From NCBI GenBank assembly GCA_023512255.1, contig JAILZY010000130.1, forward strand, positions 1 through 8,152: a stretch of 8,152 nt of DNA, read 5' to 3'. Shown here piece by piece: positions 263 to 7,537 of this stretch; the first letter of the stretch is position 1; the number at the start of each line of letters is the position of its first letter. The position numbers and the translations under genes were made by a program. Source of the stretch: a bacterium (GTDB lineage: Bacteria > SZUA-182 > DTGQ01). The notes beneath the pieces were generated by a model, which did no database searches, was not told where the DNA came from, and was given only the letters and a program-made list of their open reading frames with translations.

Positions 263-272
263 CTAAACGATT

Positions 273-388
273 CTTTCGCTAAGTGCGTAACACAAGGTAG
301 GGGTTTGGTTTTAAACCCACCCCTAAGTCTAGGGCGGCCCTTGGGGTCCGCCGCAGCTTGCGCACTTTGTTTGCGAAAAGACCACTAA
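273..388 (+). repeat. Dispersed palindromic repeat, copy 1 (MITE-like)
   Basis: The ends are inverted: CTTTCGCTAAGTGCG on the left (273-287) and CGCACTT...GCGAAAAG on the right (361-380). The left end carries the 13-mer TGCGTAACACAAG (284-296), identical in all three copies. The right end CCGCCGCAGCTTGCGCAC and the trailing GACCACTAA (380-388) recur in copy 2. The interior holds two hairpins: 298-325, where TAGGGGT pairs with ACCCCTA-like sequence, and 333-352, where GGCGGCCC pairs with GGGTCCGCC. It contains no ORF of note, so it resembles a non-autonomous palindromic element or structured repeat. No target-site duplication is obvious. Confidence 0.75.
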
Positions 389-612
389 ATCTAAACCCTA
401 GATCCGGGACACGATTTTTGAAATTTAAAAATTCCCATTAAATTAGGTCAATCTTACCATTTACCCTAATGGGTGAAGACAATTTGGCTTATCCGTTTGA
501 GAATTATGGCCAATAATAAAGTATTCACGGATTTAAAATAAATATCGAGGAAGGAGATTCGATTAATCCTCACCAAAGAAGCAATAACCATAAGGAGAGT
601 GTTGGCCAGAAA

Positions 613-1614
613 GTGAATAGTAACCTTCTCTTTCCTATTCGATACGTTGAGATAGAAAAATTTGATCTCCAGCATCAGCCCTATATCATTCGCTATCCAT
701 TTGCTCTACATGGCGAGGGAGCTACGGCTGTCTGGCTGGAAGAGCTGATTAGCTCTATTAGACGCTTTGGTCTTCTTTCGCCTCTTATAGTCCATGTTGG
801 GAAAGAAGATAGGGGCTTTATCATTCATGGAGTAAGGCGTTTTTTGGCCTGTCAGGCCCTAGGCTGGACCAGCCTACCCTGTCGGGTTATTCCGTCCGAC
901 AAAGCGCCTTCCGAGCTCTATCAACTTAGTTTGTCGATTTTTCTCAGCCATCATAAGCCAAACGTCATGGAGCAGGCCAGAATTATCCAAAGGCTTCAAA
1001 CCCTTCTCCCGCAGGAGGTGATTATTCAGGAGTTTTTGCCTCGGCTTGGGCTTTCGCCCCAGCGAAAAGTGCTTGAGCGGATAAGCCAACTTGCTGGGCT
1101 AGAGGATGAGATTGCTGAACATCTGGCCCTTGGAGAAACAGACCCTCAGCTTGGCTGGCGGCTCATTAAGCTTACCCCTTCTTCGGCCAGACTGGCCATG
1201 CATCGCTTTTTGCGCAAGCTCCCCTTCACCTTGAGTCAGCAGTTTGAGATTGTCGAATATGTACAGGAGATCGCCCACAGGGAGCAGCGTTCGGTTGAGG
1301 ATTTGCTTGGGGCACAGGCAGTGCTGGAGCTTTTTGCCTCTGATCTTGATCAGCGGCAAAAAGCCAATGCCGTTCGGCTCTTTTGGCGTAGCAGGCGCTA
1401 TCCAAGACTGACTGCCCTTGAGGAGGAGTTTAACCAGCAGAAAAAAGCGCTTCGGCTGCCGGAGCATCTTGAGCTTTATCCGCCGCATAACTTTGAGCAC
1501 GGAAGCTATAAGTTTGAACTAAAGTTTGCTGACCTGGCCGAATTGCGGCAAAAACTGAAATTTTTAAATAATTTGATATCTTGTGAAAAATTTAAAAATA
1601 TTATCAAATCATAA
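613..1614 (+). CDS. ParB/Spo0J-like nuclease-fold protein
   Basis: 333-residue protein with an N-terminal ParB/Spo0J-type fold (about residues 4-95). The pattern LISSIRRFGLLSPLIV (45-60), a strand pair, then HGVRRFLACQALGW (72-85) and LPCRVIP corresponds to the family's 'GERR' box, with Val replacing the usual Glu. Residues about 136-190 (FLPRLGLSPQRKVLERISQL... then AEHLALGETDPQLGWRLIKL) resemble the ParB helix-turn-helix, so DNA binding is plausible. The C-terminal third is not recognised, and its last 18 residues are encoded by very AT-rich DNA. It starts with GTG; AAGGAG lies at 592-597, 15 nt upstream, which is longer than ideal. The frame is open back to 520 without an ATG, so the start is uncertain. 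There is no ParA partner; the next gene is an SPL-like radical SAM protein 26 nt downstream, which argues against ordinary chromosome partitioning. Confidence 0.8.
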   Translation: MNSNLLFPIRYVEIEKFDLQHQPYIIRYPFALHGEGATAVWLEELISSIRRFGLLSPLIVHVGKEDRGFIIHGVRRFLACQALGWTSLPCRVIPSDKAPSELYQLSLSIFLSHHKPNVMEQARIIQRLQTLLPQEVIIQEFLPRLGLSPQRKVLERISQLAGLEDEIAEHLALGETDPQLGWRLIKLTPSSARLAMHRFLRKLPFTLSQQFEIVEYVQEIAHREQRSVEDLLGAQAVLELFASDLDQRQKANAVRLFWRSRRYPRLTALEEEFNQQKKALRLPEHLELYPPHNFEHGSYKFELKFADLAELRQKLKFLNNLISCEKFKNIIKS

Positions 1615-1640
1615 TCTACCTAATCTGCCAAGAGCTGATC

Positions 1641-2717
1641 ATGCCTCCATATCTGCCAAAAAGAATTATTATTAGCCCACAGCTTTCCTCATCCTCTCCG
1701 CTGGTTGAAAGTATTCTCCGCCATGCTCCTTGCGCTCAGGTGGAATATAGGAAAATCGATCAGGATTGCCTTCATCTGCTCACCGCGGATGATCTTGTGG
1801 TAACTCGGCATCAGGGCAGTTTCTATAAGCCCTGCCCCGGCACTCAGCACTATCTTTGCTGCCAGTATAAGATTTTGCACATTGGCGCAAACTGCCCTCT
1901 GTCCTGCACTTATTGTATCCTGCAAGCTTACCTGGACCATCCGGCCTTGATTGTCCATGCTAACGTGGAAGAGATGCTGTCAGAACTAGATGAGCTTTTT
2001 TTTCGCTTCCCCTCAAGTTTTTTTCGGATTGGTACCGGTGAGCTTACCGATAGCTTAGTGCTGGACCACCTGACTGGGCTGTCAACTATCCTCGTCCCAT
2101 ATTTTGCCGCCCAAAAAAATGCCTGCCTGGAGCTTAAGACCAAGACCACCAATGTTGGCCATCTGAAAGACCTAGATCACAGGGGAAAAACCATTGTAGC
2201 TTGGTCATTGAATTCGGCCAGTGTGGTCTGTCGGGAAGAGCTTGGCGCACCCTCGGTTGAGGAGCGGCTGCTGGCAGCCAGAGCCTGTCAGGAGTGGGGA
2301 TATCGGCTGGCCTTTCACTTTGATCCTATTATCTATTATCCAGGCTGGGAAAAAGAGTATCAAGAAACCATAGAGCAGCTTTTTTCCACCATTAAGTCAT
2401 CTCGGATTGCTTGGATCAGCCTGGGCTGCTTTCGGTATCTGCCTCGGCTAAAGCCGATCATTCAGGAAAAATTCCACCATAGCCGGATTATCTATGAGGA
2501 GTTTATCCAGGGGCTTGACGGGAAGATGCGATATTTGGAAATCCTGCGCCAGCAGATCTATGCCAATATGGTTCGATGGATCAGGCAGAGGGCTCCTGAG
2601 TGTTTTCTGTATCTTTGTATGGAAAGCCCTAAGGTATGGCGAAACAGTTTAGGATTTGCTCCGGCTAGCAATCAGGAGCTTCAATCATGGCTTGATCAGC
2701 GTGGCCGCAATTTTTGA
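1641..2717 (+). CDS. Spore photoproduct lyase-family radical SAM protein
   Basis: 358 residues, close to the usual SPL length. The radical SAM cluster motif is Cys85-x3-Cys89-x2-Cys92 in IGANCPLSCTYC, the CX3CX2C spacing that should bind a [4Fe-4S] cluster and S-adenosylmethionine. The upstream segment HQGSFYKPCPGTQHYLCC and the downstream segments RIGTGELTDSLVLDHL (129-144), LELKTKTTNV (163-172) and RLAFHFDPII (222-231) follow the SPL-type layout. Bacillus SPL uses a cysteine after the cluster motif (about 141) as hydrogen donor. The aligned segment here reads GELTDS with no Cys, so repair of spore photoproduct should not be assumed. The ATG at 1641 has only a weak AGAG upstream, and the gap to the ParB-like gene is 26 nt, so co-transcription is likely. 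No sporulation genes are seen. Family assignment is firm; substrate is unknown. Confidence 0.85.
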   Translation: MPPYLPKRIIISPQLSSSSPLVESILRHAPCAQVEYRKIDQDCLHLLTADDLVVTRHQGSFYKPCPGTQHYLCCQYKILHIGANCPLSCTYCILQAYLDHPALIVHANVEEMLSELDELFFRFPSSFFRIGTGELTDSLVLDHLTGLSTILVPYFAAQKNACLELKTKTTNVGHLKDLDHRGKTIVAWSLNSASVVCREELGAPSVEERLLAARACQEWGYRLAFHFDPIIYYPGWEKEYQETIEQLFSTIKSSRIAWISLGCFRYLPRLKPIIQEKFHHSRIIYEEFIQGLDGKMRYLEILRQQIYANMVRWIRQRAPECFLYLCMESPKVWRNSLGFAPASNQELQSWLDQRGRNF

Positions 2718-2766
2718 AGGCCGTATTAACTAGAAATTATTCGAAAAGCCGGGCTAGCTCCAATTT

Positions 2767-4365
2767 TCAATTTTCGGACTCATCCATTTGATAGACCTCA
2801 AAGCTGATATCAGGGAAAAGGTTATCGGCCCTTTCTATACTCTCAAGCCAGTCGGTGTCAATAGAGCCAGCCAGGACCTGATGACAGATACGGTTAAATT
2901 GCTCAAGGTGGGCAATGGTGCGCCTTATAGCGTATTGGACACAGGTTTTGTTATGGATGATAAAGGCCCAGTCACTCCCCTGGGCCAGCAGGAGTTCACG
3001 GCTGGCCTGATTGAGAGCCCTTCGCACCTCAGCATTGCTGCCGGCAAACCGCGCCGCCAAAAACTCCATAAGCTGTGCGGCCTTGAACAGAGGAGGATAG
3101 ATCCATTTATTGGTGCTATTGAGCCACATCTCATTATACCCTTTCCATCCCCAACTGGAAGCGGCAGGCTGGACAACCTGATTGATGGGAAATCTTTCCA
3201 GATATTCCGAGGGAGTGATCATCCTGAGCGAGCCCCCACTGGCCGCGATCTCCCGAATCAGGAAGTTGAGCCAGTCAGGTCCTTCATACCACCAGTGGCC
3301 AAATAGTTCTGCGTCGTAGGGAGCAACAAATAGAGGGGGGCGATCCATCTGCCGACTTAGGAAAAGGCTGTAGCTTTCATGGCTGCGAAAGCAATCCCTG
3401 GCGTGCTCTCTGGCTCTGGCTAGAGCTTTTGGTGGATGGTAAAAATCCTTGTGCCTGCCAGATCCGGTAATCCGATAATATTTTATCCCAGTATCAACCC
3501 TCAGATTCTGATGGAGGTATGGCCTGATATACTCATAGTCAAGGTCATGGCCAACATCACGGTAAAATTCCCGATAATCAGGATCCGCCGGATACCCCTC
3601 CTGGGCACTCCACACTTGCCTGGCTGACCTTTGATCACGTCCGAAAGCAGCTACTCCTGACGGGCAATAGACAGGAGCATAGACCAAATACTTGGGCCGA
3701 GGGTGAGCATAGGCAAGCCCGTGGGTATCTAAAAAAAAGAATCGCAGGCCAAAAGAGCGCAGTAGCTGGTCAAGACCGGGATAGTAACCACACTCAGGCA
3801 GCCAAATGCCGCGAGAGGTTTGTCCAAACACCTTCTGATAATAATCTAGTGCTACGGCAATCTGGGCCCTTACCGAGGATGGGTTCATCTTTAAGAGGGG
3901 CAGATATCCGTGCGTTGCCGGACAGGTAATAATCTCAAGCTTCCCCAGGGTCTGAAAATGGGAGAAGGCCGAGAGGAGGTTTCGCTCATACCTTTGTTGA
4001 AAAAGGCGCTTATTGGTCAGAAATTTTTCATGGTATAGGGAAGATAGAGGCAGAAGTTCCTGATGGTGCCTATTTCTTAGAATCTCTTTTTCTGCCAGTT
4101 CTATAAGCCTGTCCAGATACCGAATAAATCTTTCCTGAAGGAGTGGATCAACGAGCATGGCCATCAGGGTAGGGCTTAGACTTAAGGTAAGCCGAAAATC
4201 CACCCCTTCCTCAACCAGATTCTCCAGTACTTGAAGCAGGGGGAGATAACTCTCATTGATGGCCTCAAACAACCAGCGCTCCTCCAGGCATTCATCCTGT
4301 TCAGGATGTCGGACAAAGGGGAGATGGGCATGGAGAATCAAGCAAAAATAGGCCCGCGACTCCAT
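2767..4365 (-). CDS. GH57 1,4-alpha-glucan branching enzyme
   Basis: 532 residues, matching bacterial GH57 branching enzymes (about 520-530). It transfers alpha-1,4 glucan segments to alpha-1,6 positions in glycogen synthesis, in the cytoplasm; no signal peptide is seen. The family motifs appear in order: HAHLPFVRHPE (12-22), ATHGYLPLL (150-158), GIWLPECGYYPG with the predicted nucleophile Glu191, GVAAFGRD in the mobile-loop region (237-244), PYDAELFGHWWYEGPDWL with the predicted acid/base Asp351, and SSWGWKGYNEMWLN (403-416). The C-terminal helical domain carries LLLAQGSDWAFIIHNKTCVQYA, also typical. The layout matches the Thermococcus TK1436 type, and all key residues are present. The ATG directly follows the TAA of the DUF4912 gene, with GGAG 5 nt upstream (4371-4374), implying coupled translation. 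It converges on the SPL-like gene across 49 nt, in which I see no clear terminator. Confidence 0.95.
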   Translation of the reverse strand: MESRAYFCLILHAHLPFVRHPEQDECLEERWLFEAINESYLPLLQVLENLVEEGVDFRLTLSLSPTLMAMLVDPLLQERFIRYLDRLIELAEKEILRNRHHQELLPLSSLYHEKFLTNKRLFQQRYERNLLSAFSHFQTLGKLEIITCPATHGYLPLLKMNPSSVRAQIAVALDYYQKVFGQTSRGIWLPECGYYPGLDQLLRSFGLRFFFLDTHGLAYAHPRPKYLVYAPVYCPSGVAAFGRDQRSARQVWSAQEGYPADPDYREFYRDVGHDLDYEYIRPYLHQNLRVDTGIKYYRITGSGRHKDFYHPPKALARAREHARDCFRSHESYSLFLSRQMDRPPLFVAPYDAELFGHWWYEGPDWLNFLIREIAASGGSLRMITPSEYLERFPINQVVQPAASSWGWKGYNEMWLNSTNKWIYPPLFKAAQLMEFLAARFAGSNAEVRRALNQASRELLLAQGSDWAFIIHNKTCVQYAIRRTIAHLEQFNRICHQVLAGSIDTDWLESIERADNLFPDISFEVYQMDESEN

Positions 4366-5613
4366 TTAATCTCCGCTTGTTCTGATTTTTTGAAACCAGA
4401 TAGGAATAAATTCGCGCACCTCTCCCCCTTGCGGCAACTGGGCTCGTAAACAAATCCAGTGTTTGCCCTGACGGCCAAGGTTTAGACGCCAGGAAAAGCT
4501 CCCGTCTGGATGAACCGGAACGGCATCCTCACCAATATAAATAGCCACTCCTGGTTGGGTGCGTCCATAGATTACAAGATCAAGGTCATACTGGAAAGAG
4601 GCCTCAAGACGCGAGGAGGCCGCTTTTTCTGAATGGCGAATATCCCCCCTCGAATAACTGCTCAAGGCAGCAGAAGAGAGGATGCTAATTGGGCTGCCGA
4701 AGAAGTCTCCAAGCTCTAGGCTCGAGAGGCTGCTCGGCAGATTATCTGAGGCTACGAAAGATGAGCCGAAAGAGGAGCTGCTTAAGCTGCTAAGGCTAGC
4801 TAGGCTACTCCACTCCGGTGCGCTCAAGCCTTCCTGTTCTCTTGCTTCAGAGAAAGCAGCCTCTGTGGGGATAAGGCCCTCAGGCTCTCTGGATTCCTTA
4901 CCCTGGGCCGCCTCATACTGGCCAGCAGGTGCTCCTTCCAGCCTTGTTATCTCCGCCGCTTTCTTGGGCTGGTGTTGAGACAACAGGTGGCGATAATACT
5001 CTTCCACCATTTCCTGACTGATGGGGTATTTTGAAGATGGCCTTTGGGCCAAAAGCTCTTCAGAGCTGATGAGGCTCACGGTTTCGTATTCGCCGAGAAC
5101 CTTCATCCACTTCTCCTGGCACTGAGGTGAGGAGATGGTATTTTTCGGAGTTTTGACCACATTTGACCGTTTGATGACATAAAATTCACCCGAGGCTAGA
5201 GATTTCAATCCCAATTCGGCGAAATAGAGCCTATCTGATCGGGGAACCTCTATATACCAGTCATTTTTCCATCCCTCAACCGGAAGATCAAAATATGAGC
5301 CAAATTGCTGCCTACCATTATCTTCTTCACCTTCAATTATCCGCAAGGTAAGCTGGCTATTTTGAAAAATATCCTTCTTTTGCGCACCTATGGCGGCCAA
5401 ATCTTCTGGCCACACTTCCCAGCAGGCGTAGAGATGCCTTGGATCAACCTCCAAAAGGAGCAAGAGAGGTGAAATCCACTCTGTAGATAGATCTGCCCTC
5501 TCCTTTGCTGGATAAGAATTTTGGCTATTGGCCGTTGCATGACTTGCGTGCATTTCACCGCTTTCTCGGGTAGCTTCCTTCCTAAACTCGGGCTTAAGTG
5601 GTTTCCTTGCCAA
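4366..5613 (-). CDS. DUF4912 domain protein with Ser-rich linker
   Basis: 415 residues if translation starts at the TTG at 5613. Residues about 44-165 match DUF4912 (SPLLLLLEVDPRHLYACWEVWPEDL, then QLTLRIIEGEE and DWYIEVPRSDRLYFAELGL). Residues about 344-395 match the conserved C-terminal part (DLVIYGRTQPGVAIYIGEDAVPVHPDGSFSWRL), probably a beta-sandwich. Between them a charged stretch (about 210-265) leads into a strongly Ser/Leu-rich linker (about 268-320). No signal peptide or membrane segment is seen. DUF4912 has no established biochemical role but is often found beside GH57 genes, and here it is immediately followed by the branching enzyme. The TTG has no good ribosome binding site and lies inside repeat copy 2. 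The first in-frame ATG is residue 21 (5553), preceded by GGTG, and the frame closes at 5638-5640. The N-terminus is therefore uncertain. Confidence 0.87.
   Translation of the reverse strand: MARKPLKPEFRKEATRESGEMHASHATANSQNSYPAKERADLSTEWISPLLLLLEVDPRHLYACWEVWPEDLAAIGAQKKDIFQNSQLTLRIIEGEEDNGRQQFGSYFDLPVEGWKNDWYIEVPRSDRLYFAELGLKSLASGEFYVIKRSNVVKTPKNTISSPQCQEKWMKVLGEYETVSLISSEELLAQRPSSKYPISQEMVEEYYRHLLSQHQPKKAAEITRLEGAPAGQYEAAQGKESREPEGLIPTEAAFSEAREQEGLSAPEWSSLASLSSLSSSSFGSSFVASDNLPSSLSSLELGDFFGSPISILSSAALSSYSRGDIRHSEKAASSRLEASFQYDLDLVIYGRTQPGVAIYIGEDAVPVHPDGSFSWRLNLGRQGKHWICLRAQLPQGGEVREFIPIWFQKIRTSGD
4371..4374 (-). promoter_or_regulatory. Ribosome binding site for the branching enzyme
   Basis: On the minus strand GGAG lies 5 nt before the ATG at 4365. 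It sits within the last codons of the DUF4912 gene, whose TAA abuts the ATG. This supports the chosen start and translational coupling of the two genes. Confidence 0.7.
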
Positions 5614-5801
5614 ATGCGTAACACAAGTGGGAGCGAATCAATTATCCTGAATCCAGAGAGAACACCTGAAAAGCTTTGTATTCCAGAATGTTAACTCACA
5701 CATTTTGTGAAAATTATGGCATAAGGATTACGCTATCAATTGTAGGTGCAGACCTTGTGCCCGCCCAGCCTTGTGCACTCTATTAGCGAAAAGACCACTA
5801 A
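5604..5801 (+). repeat. Dispersed palindromic repeat, copy 2 (expanded)
   Basis: Same orientation as copy 1. The left end carries the shared 13-mer TGCGTAACACAAG (5615-5627). The right end (5741-5801) ends in TTAGCGAAAAGACCACTAA, nearly as in copy 1. The 21 bases at 5741-5761 are identical to the reverse complement of 7425-7445 in copy 3. Aligned with copy 3, this copy carries about 83 extra bases between two ATTA tetramers (5641-5644 and 5727-5730), suggesting either a secondary insertion or a deletion in copy 3. The element fills the gap between two collinear genes: it ends 7 nt from the GH57-like stop codon and overlaps the TTG start of the DUF4912 gene. Confidence 0.78.
5713..5739 (-). 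promoter_or_regulatory. Weak candidate promoter for DUF4912 and branching enzyme
   Basis: On the minus strand a TTGATA (5739-5734) is followed after 15 nt by CATAAT (5718-5713). Each matches the sigma-70 consensus at five of six positions, but the spacing is short. It lies inside repeat copy 2, partly in the extra 83-base segment, and would give a leader of about 95 nt. Reported as a possibility only. Confidence 0.22.
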
Positions 5802-5808
5802 GTAAGGT

Positions 5809-7050
5809 TTACCATACCTGCCTTTTTACCTCCTTCAGGAGGATGAGAGCTGGCTTTATGTTATCATAGACTTTTGCCGCCCAGGATTCATCCTCTTCCG
5901 AGAAATAGCAATCGGTTTGAGATCTCAGCAGCCACTTCTGAACCCTTTCTAACAGGTCAGCCAAATCTACTACCTGCCCCTGGTGGAGGCAGCGGTCTGT
6001 TTTCTGCAATAGGGCTGCCCTTACCTCATGATATTGCTGACTCAAACGCCAGACCTCTTCAATCGCCCGCTTGCGTTCAGATGGGCTGCATCTGCCAATT
6101 GAAGCAAAATGGCCATTCTCTTGGAAATCCGCAATGCGGATATTTTCTACTTGAAGAGTTAACGGCGGCCGCATTTTCATCTCAGGCACAAGTTCTCTAA
6201 GAAGCACACTCCGTGGTGCAATCGCAGACTTGTATCTCCACTTAAGATAAGGGGAAAAATATCCCTCCCAAAACTCGCAGTCTTCGGGCAGGCTGCTAAT
6301 CTTTCGACCGATCAGATCATCAATGACCAGCCAGTCAACAATGAGCGAATCTTGCTGCCCAGCCGCAAGACTTGCTCCATCCCTAGACGGCAGGGCCGCT
6401 GGTAGCTTGGTTGGGCTGTCCCCTGCCCTAAGATGATCGAAGCCATTACTGATAAATACAGCACCAATTTCGGCTTGACGATAAATCAGGCTCCCGATCG
6501 AAGAATACCGATCATGGCCACAGCAGTTTCCCACTGCCTCTTTGATTTTTGGTTTTACTGCTGATCTATCCAGAATAACATATTCATATCCATACTTTTT
6601 GAGGATAGGTATCATCTGCGGACAAAAGCCCTTGGCTGAGGGGAAAAAACCTCTTGGCTCCTGCCCGAAAACCTCCCTGGCTATCTCCTTCCCTTGGGCA
6701 ATCTGCGCATCCCAATCTACAGTCGGAATCAGGGTAAACAGGGGATGAGAGTATCCAAGGCCGATAATTTCGACATTCTTTGACTCTCGGCATCCATTCA
6801 GCATGGATGGAATATCAATAATTTTGCGGCAAGCATCAATAACTTCCCTGGAGAGAAGCTCCTCAAGAAGGACTCCTGAGAACCCAACATGGATTTTGAG
6901 ACAATCTTGATAGCTATTTAGATACTTCAATGGCATCTGATAGCTGTCGATTATTTGCAGAAGCCTTCCCATCTGATGTTCGACCAGCGTATTCAAGGTA
7001 TCAGGAGGCTGGTGCATAAGGAAACCAAGAGCATGACATACCCTGGTCAT
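5809..7050 (-). CDS. Divergent GH57-fold protein, nucleophile apparently absent
   Basis: 413 residues. The N-terminus ALGFLMHQPP (7-16) corresponds to the GH57 strand that carries the conserved HQPP. VEIIGLGYSHPLFTLIPTVDWDAQI (93-117) matches the 'GxxHPL.P' region, and GFFPSAKGFCPQMIPILKKYGYEYVILD (134-161) matches the nucleophile strand. In typical members this last segment reads PxE; here it is P137-S-A139-K, so the catalytic Glu is replaced. I also find no clear motif-4 Asp segment comparable to the branching enzyme's PYDAELFGHWW. The C-terminal part is charged and probably helical. No signal peptide is seen. The ATG at 7050 has GGAG 11 nt upstream with a purine-rich spacer. It is the first of three collinear minus-strand genes, separated from the DUF4912 gene by repeat copy 2. 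It could be a pseudoenzyme, a regulator, or an enzyme with different chemistry. Confidence 0.75.
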   Translation of the reverse strand: MTRVCHALGFLMHQPPDTLNTLVEHQMGRLLQIIDSYQMPLKYLNSYQDCLKIHVGFSGVLLEELLSREVIDACRKIIDIPSMLNGCRESKNVEIIGLGYSHPLFTLIPTVDWDAQIAQGKEIAREVFGQEPRGFFPSAKGFCPQMIPILKKYGYEYVILDRSAVKPKIKEAVGNCCGHDRYSSIGSLIYRQAEIGAVFISNGFDHLRAGDSPTKLPAALPSRDGASLAAGQQDSLIVDWLVIDDLIGRKISSLPEDCEFWEGYFSPYLKWRYKSAIAPRSVLLRELVPEMKMRPPLTLQVENIRIADFQENGHFASIGRCSPSERKRAIEEVWRLSQQYHEVRAALLQKTDRCLHQGQVVDLADLLERVQKWLLRSQTDCYFSEEDESWAAKVYDNIKPALILLKEVKRQVW

Positions 7051-7061
7051 CTTTTTTCTTT

Positions 7062-7065
7062 CTCC
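7062..7065 (-). promoter_or_regulatory. Ribosome binding site for the GH57-like gene
   Basis: On the minus strand GGAG lies 11 nt before the ATG at 7050, with an A/G-rich spacer. The spacing is slightly long but supports this ATG. A TATAAA (7077-7072) lies just upstream; I could not find a good matching -35. Confidence 0.45.
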
Positions 7066-7150
7066 AGTTTTTATAAAGTGGCACTCTCACGGTCATTGAT
7101 AAAATGAAGAAGTGATCAAGAGCTTCCGCTGCCCGGAAGAAACAGCCATA

Positions 7151-7186
7151 TAGGTATTGATATTAGTTAATAGGTATCAATATCAG
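7151..7186. promoter_or_regulatory. Operator-like dyad with 20-bp phasing
   Basis: Arms GGTATTGATAT (7153-7163) and GTATCAATATC (7174-7184) are inverted repeats with two mismatches. The same sequence also reads as two direct 16-mers, TAGGTATTGATATTAG and TAGGTATCAATATCAG, starting 20 bp apart (two helical turns). It lies about 100 bp upstream of the GH57-like ATG. This arrangement suits a dimeric regulator, but no regulator is encoded in the window and nothing else supports the role. Confidence 0.4.
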
Positions 7187-7385
7187 ATACTTTTCACTCT
7201 TTAGCTGATCCCTTGACACTCATAACCCCTTCCCTTATCAAGAGGCCATTTCAAGAGACCATTTGAAAAAGATCCGACAGGAAGCAGCGGATATAATTGA
7301 TTTTAAGATATTTAAAAATTATTGTCAATAAATAACAAGAAAGGTTTTAGATGTTCCTTATCTTTCTCCCCCCTATTTTTGGCAT

Positions 7386-7499
7386 TTAGTAGTTTTTTTG
7401 CCAATAAATTGCGCAGGCTGCGGCGGCACAAGGTCTGCACCTACATTATTATTGCGTAATTGATCCGCTGCGCACTTGTGTTACGCACTTAACGAAAAG
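7386..7499 (-). repeat. Dispersed palindromic repeat, copy 3 (inverted)
   Basis: Opposite orientation to copies 1 and 2. Read on the minus strand it starts CTTTTCGTTAAGTGCG, contains the shared 13-mer TGCGTAACACAAG (7487-7475), and ends with CCGCCGCAGCCTGCGCA (within 7411-7427), a degenerate GGCAAAAAAAC and ACTACTAA. It shares a 21-base identity with copy 2 (7425-7445), and similarity extends on both sides. It can fold because TGCGCAGCGG near the left pairs with CCGC and TGCGCA near the right. At 114 nt it matches copy 1 in length and may represent the unexpanded form of copy 2. Confidence 0.75.
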
Positions 7500-7503
7500 G
7501 CTA

Positions 7504-7537
7504 TTTAATCATTGATATAATTTAATCATTGATATAG
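7504..7537. repeat. 17-bp tandem duplication next to repeat copy 3
   Basis: TTTAATCATTGATATAA (7504-7520) is followed directly by TTTAATCATTGATATAG (7521-7537), differing only at the last base. It begins 5 nt beyond the outer end of repeat copy 3. It may be a local slippage product or a flank duplication. Confidence 0.75.

Follow-up and report, generated by a model that had tools for sequence, protein, structure and literature searches.

The window analyzed here, a stretch of 8,152 nucleotides that makes up one whole contig (C150) of a draft genome of 172 contigs and 3.83 Mb, contains three related noncoding repeats, and the question that this locus raises is whether these repeats are mobile elements, structured RNAs, or something else. 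On the basis of their sequence, they are very probably copies of a non-autonomous MITE family with more than 150 copies dispersed through the genome, which would be new as a family but of a kind already well known. The observations that point to this are terminal inverted repeats (TIRs), a target duplication fixed at 5 bp, short noncoding and dispersed copies, and a paralogous empty site.

Three copies in one window

The three copies share the 13-mer TGCGTAACACAAG exactly, as had been predicted, at positions 284-296 (plus strand), 5615-5627 (plus strand), and 7475-7487 (minus strand), and the 21-base identity described for copies 2 and 3 (TGTAGGTGCAGACCTTGTGCC) is real. While the presence of three copies was thus correctly recognized, their limits had been placed about 4 to 5 bases off, as the inverted ends and the target duplications put them at 268-384, 5599-5797, and 7390-7503.

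Copy 1 (268-384, plus strand, 117 bp) is delimited by a TIR pair and by a match to the sequence-only model R1 at 269-384, carries core variant B (GTAGGGGTTTGGTTTTAAACCCACCCCTAAGTCTAGGGCGG), and is flanked by the target duplication CTAAA at 263-267 and 385-389. Copy 2 (5599-5797, plus strand) has core variant A and a pair of TIRs showing 1 and 0 mismatches, and comparison of its flanks gave TTAAG at 5594-5598 and CTAAG at 5798-5802, identical at four of five positions. It is 199 bp long because a second dispersed repeat of about 72 to 83 bp (family 2; 5645-5727, plus strand) is nested in it, a feature that the original prediction had missed, splitting the copy between ..CAATTA and CGCTATCAATTG... 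Copy 3 (7390-7503, minus strand, 114 bp) also has core variant A, with a degenerate right end, a pair of TIRs showing 2 and 3 mismatches, and a model R1 match at 7391-7499; its flanks, read on the plus strand, are TTTAG at 7385-7389 and TTTAA at 7504-7508, again identical at four of five positions.

The two genes on either side of copy 2 both run on the minus strand. Copy 2 is 12 bases downstream of the stop codon of one of them, which belongs to the GH57 family (5809-7050, minus strand), and the TTG start of the other, a mechanically called open reading frame (ORF; 4366-5613, minus strand, DUF4912), overlaps the left end of the copy. Since the homologue of the DUF4912 protein at a syntenic locus of a same-family genome (L070) starts at a different, non-repeat sequence, the true start of this ORF is probably further inside the gene.

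Two further repeats were seen in the window. From the edge of copy 3 onward, at 7503-7536, the 17-mer ATTTAATCATTGATATA is perfectly duplicated in tandem. Positions 1-72 are nearly identical, over about 70 bp (ACTTTCTTCTCTCTTTATTTTC...AACATGGGGAACATC), to the starts of contigs C60 and C25; this repeat at the starts of three contigs is a probable cause of the assembly breaks and could be the terminus of a longer element present in several copies.

Consensus and copy number

Lined up on the 13-mer, 35 copies yielded a consensus of 113 bp, TGGTTCTTTCGCTAAGTGCGTAACACAAGTGCGCAGCGGATCAATTACGCTATCAATTGTAGGnGCGGACCTTGTGCCGCCGCAGCTTGCGCACTTTGTTAGCGAAAAGACCA, in which terminal inverted repeats of the form TGGTYYTTTCGCTAA..GTGCG enclose a short variable core. 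Read from the outside inward, the ends are TGGTTCTTTCGCTAA-GTGCGTAA on the left and TGGTCTTTTCGCTAACAAAGTGCGCAA on the right; about 15 bp of an end are well conserved and are followed by a gapped GTGCG block. The median element length is 115 bp.

The suspicion that three copies in 8 kb reflect a high-copy genomic family was borne out by searches of the genome. The exact 13-mer occurs 64 times in 3.83 Mb (reversed control, 0), the TIR 15-mer with up to 2 mismatches 326 times (control, 16), and the right-end 26-mer, allowing 3 mismatches, 148 times (control, 0), and the sequence-only model, with 150 candidates scored, has at least 164 matches. Within the 2.42 Mb covered by reading, pairing of inverted ends identified 161 elements, compared to 16 for the reversed TIR. 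As these 2.42 Mb are 63% of the genome and their contigs were non-randomly chosen, the whole-genome total, by extrapolation, would be roughly 160 to 250 copies. The median identity of a copy to its nearest neighbor is 90%, a divergence which suggests that the family grew over some time.

The ends also vary in a patterned way. In 12 oriented elements with TGGTCT on the left, the terminal hexamers TGGTTC and TGGTCT are swapped around an unchanged core (for example, C21:2955-3067 and C160:19741-19853), which could result from inversion of the core via recombination between the ends, followed by amplification. CT/CT end pairs number 0, versus 5.8 expected. A rule of end asymmetry, drawn from the negative correlation of the terminal hexamers, was considered and dropped, as a swapped-end subfamily explains the pattern better.

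Target duplications and an empty site

Target-site duplications had been proposed as a check on mobility, and exact duplications of 5 bp flank 61 of the 161 TIR-paired elements, compared to a mean of 8.0 and a maximum of 19 for shuffled flanks. Among the same elements, duplications of 3 or 4 bp show no excess over shuffled flanks, and those of 6 bp are few. The preferred targets are CTAAG, CTTAG, TTTAG, and CTAAA, with the consensus CTWAG and the palindromic form YTWAR.

One element, C114:39735-39839, sits within another dispersed repeat, so that a filled site, CTCT-TTAAC-[element]-CTAAC-ATCTTGATATT, can be set beside an empty paralogue in C29, CTCT-CTAAT-ATCTTGATATT, which is precise and has no element; further paralogues of the host repeat are also without it. 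This sole empty site is a paralogous one, in a diverged repeat within a single genome. The syntenic locus L070 is too diverged and lacks the second GH57 gene, and it is therefore uninformative as an orthologous empty site.

The anatomy of the element leads us to propose that a transposase acting in trans would bind the ends of about 15 bp, either cut the element out or copy it, and insert it at CTWAG-like sites opened by a staggered cut of 5 bp. A site of this kind inside the element's own ends (..CGCTAAG..) would explain self-insertion, and the tandem and nested arrangements that are common for this element are expected because the preferred target forms part of its end. Head-to-tail arrays of two to three copies of an end unit of about 16 bp (TGGTTTTCTCGCTAAG) were also noted (C8:38081 and 55010-55042, C3:35890, and C130:49162), and these are perhaps leftovers of self-insertion at CTAAG within the end.

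Genomic placement and folding

Elements were found wholly outside ORFs (of at least 100 amino acids) in 123 of 141 high-confidence cases, while random placements do so in 12%, and they show no preferred orientation relative to genes ending nearby (47:41) or starting nearby (46:43). The window copies had been described as foldable, which is true of copy 1 (z = -2.67) and not of copy 3 (z = +1.16); the average z of a sample of 54 copies was -3.4.

Intergenic placement and the 44 of 54 copies with z below -2 compared to shuffles are what one would expect of a structured RNA, which the original prediction had also suggested, or of a cis-regulatory element (terminator, attenuator, or mRNA-stability hairpin), with a fold selected at many genes. 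We regard this as very improbable, since folding better than that of shuffled sequences follows from the inverted, complementary ends alone and compensatory changes were detected neither in the 15-base end arms (1,653 pairings within copies versus 1,675 when shuffled between copies) nor, in a rough test on 75 copies picked by pattern, in the core hairpin (451 versus 447 shuffled). The random orientation relative to genes, the lack of an Rfam family match within the window, and the failure to find the family in relatives also argue against a selected fold, and the target duplications and the empty site speak for insertion. Single copies could still affect neighboring transcripts.

Taken together, the inverted ends, the 5-bp duplications, the empty site, the location outside genes, and a copy number above 150 all favor the other suggestion of the original prediction, a non-autonomous mobile element.

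GTAG hairpins and the RAYT

Many cores contain GTAG and an imperfect hairpin, GTAGGGGCGGACCTTGTGTCCGCCC-like. GTAG-headed hairpins define REPs (PMC3733652), and the genome encodes one RAYT, the only match to PF01797 genome-wide, so the elements might be of the REP/BIME type, with the RAYT (a Y1 HUH transposase) moving the hairpin and not the outer inverted ends. Several observations leave us with hardly any confidence in this reading: in the 2.42 Mb read, the GTAG hairpins (GTAGGGGCGG) occur almost exclusively inside TIR elements and almost never free-standing, some core variants do without the hairpin, and the REP beside the sole RAYT, GTAGAGCCTGCTTCCAGCAGGCT, is a different one. Moreover, the elements carry 5-bp target duplications, and HUH transposases are not known to make any. 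As the hairpin is nearly confined to the TIR element and the REP of the RAYT is another one, the hairpin appears to be a part of the element's core and not the element's mover.

The RAYT domain itself (NF047646, E value 1.7e-27; G000:C83 at about 29 to 32 kb, locus L059, 88-2943) is in frame in an ORF, the rest of which, together with the next ORF, matches PglX-like or type II methyltransferases. With GTAGAGCCTGCTTCCAGCAGGCT on both sides of the RAYT, the arrangement resembles a REPtron inserted into a defense methylase gene.

Search for the transposase

An autonomous partner with the same ends, which the MITE reading would call for and the original prediction had pointed to, was not found between TIRs in 63% of the genome, nor through PF01609, PF00665, PF14104, and PF01797 genome-wide. 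PF01609 (DDE_Tnp_1) has three matches genome-wide, none of them flanked by the TIRs of the element. Neither PF00665 (rve) nor PF14104 (DUF4277), which is associated with IS1634, has a match genome-wide, and parents of the rve type and of the IS1634 type found no support here. A single partial query, the first 623 amino acids of the Tn1000 TnpA, found no relative in 63% of the genome. Among TIR pairs 0.4 to 5 kb apart, judged by inspection or by their flanks and with interiors translated for some only, none was convincing, and those judged appear to be pairs formed by chance or instances of nesting. Three contigs of about 2.8 to 2.9 kb each (C54, C55, and C56 of G000) consist wholly of N and lay outside the search. 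The transposase may have been lost, or it may be encoded on sequence missing from the fragmented assembly or in its unread parts; multi-copy insertion sequences are often lost from such assemblies.

A more specific form of the MITE reading would name a parent, making the element a miniature Tn3-type, TIME-like one that has AT-rich 5-bp duplications and is moved by a transposase of the Tn3 family. Duplications of 5 bp at AT-rich sites fit TIMEs (PMC4133298). Within the ends, the inner ..CGCTAAG may resemble the inner motif of Tn3-family ends. We nevertheless consider this parentage improbable, since TIMEs have conserved ends of about 38 bp, whereas here about 15 bp are followed by the gapped GTGCG block, and they usually occur once per genome (PMC4133298), not more than 150 times; the partial Tn1000 TnpA query was also without a match in the 63% searched. 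Also unlikely, though more novel, is an origin of the ends TGGTYYTTTCGCTAA and of the palindromic 5-bp target CTWAG in a transposase family that is as yet undescribed, beyond the families searched, from a thinly sampled bacterial phylum.

Distribution and other repeat families

The MITE family was seen in this genome alone. Its right-end pattern was absent from 385 other genomes, searches of the same-genus genome and of the other seven examined genomes of the phylum did not find the family, and the model had no family match in 31 further genomes. In the nearest relatives the TIR pattern is no commoner than its control, and plasmid, phage, and viral collections yielded no match. By its GH57 protein, the nearest named relative is DAOURK010000007.1 (Pseudomonadota bacterium CSMAG_150; 68% identical), and the same-genus genome G001 has a match of 84%. 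A literature search with the core sequence returned nothing relevant.

Other short repeats are found in the same genome. Family 2, present in the window at 5645-5727 and in 18 other places, amounts to 19 copies in 2.42 Mb with 90 to 96% identity; its sequence (TCCTGAATCCAGAGAGAACACCTGAAAAG...) has short and longer 3' variants and possible target duplications of 3 to 4 bp. A second MITE-like family of about 113 bp, TCGCTCTTATTTATTAGC...ATAAGAGCGA (for example, C51:14811-14923 and C12:10859-10971), has 51 copies in 2.4 Mb, mostly 93 to 98% identical to the query copy, with target duplications of apparently about 7 to 8 bp as judged by eye, and it appears more recent than the family described here. 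Another dispersed repeat, AT-rich and at least 90 to 150 bp long (CATGAAAATCTACCAATATCC...TTGATATTATTGGC), with about 80% identity between copies, was seen at C114:39.6-39.9 kb, C122:28044, C29:5516, and C9:16634.

Although no new mechanism is revealed, our findings explain a conspicuous repeat of a little-studied lineage as a MITE burst, alongside which several other short families occur. Bursts of this kind leave their mark on intergenic regions and cause breaks in assemblies. With its diverged copies and missing transposase, this family provides a usable case for how MITEs reach high copy numbers and for asking whether they outlive their transposase.

Comparison with known systems

Among insertion sequence families, IS1634, ISH3, and IS701 make duplications of about 4 to 6 bp (PMC2266710). 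Their half-helix-turn target duplications, and the AT-rich tracts of 5 to 6 bp at IS1634 sites, are similar to what we observed, while the end signatures of IS1634 and ISH3 (C-----YT and CRGT; PMC2266710) differ from the TGGT of the present element, and the PF14104 domain expected for IS1634 is absent from this genome. The GTAG REPs and TIRYT families (PMC3733652) are likewise short, palindromic, and intergenic, and a GTAG-headed hairpin is found in the core here; REPs, in contrast, are 20 to 40 bp long and have neither this TIR nor the 5-bp duplication (PMC3733652), and the sole RAYT of this genome has another REP. The Tn3-derived TIMEs (PMC4133298) are also non-autonomous elements with inverted ends and AT-rich 5-bp target duplications, but they measure 262 bp, have ends of 38 bp, and are usually present once in a genome.

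A close description among bacterial MITEs is that of MITEAba12 (PMC6382973), which differs in having a co-resident parent, ISAba12, where no parent was found here, and in spreading between species, where the present family was observed in a single genome and its copies are more diverged. In its description, MITEAba12, too, has a consensus of 113 bp, is noncoding, is most conserved in its ends of about 16 bp, has target duplications in about 40% of its copies, and shows no preference in orientation (PMC6382973).
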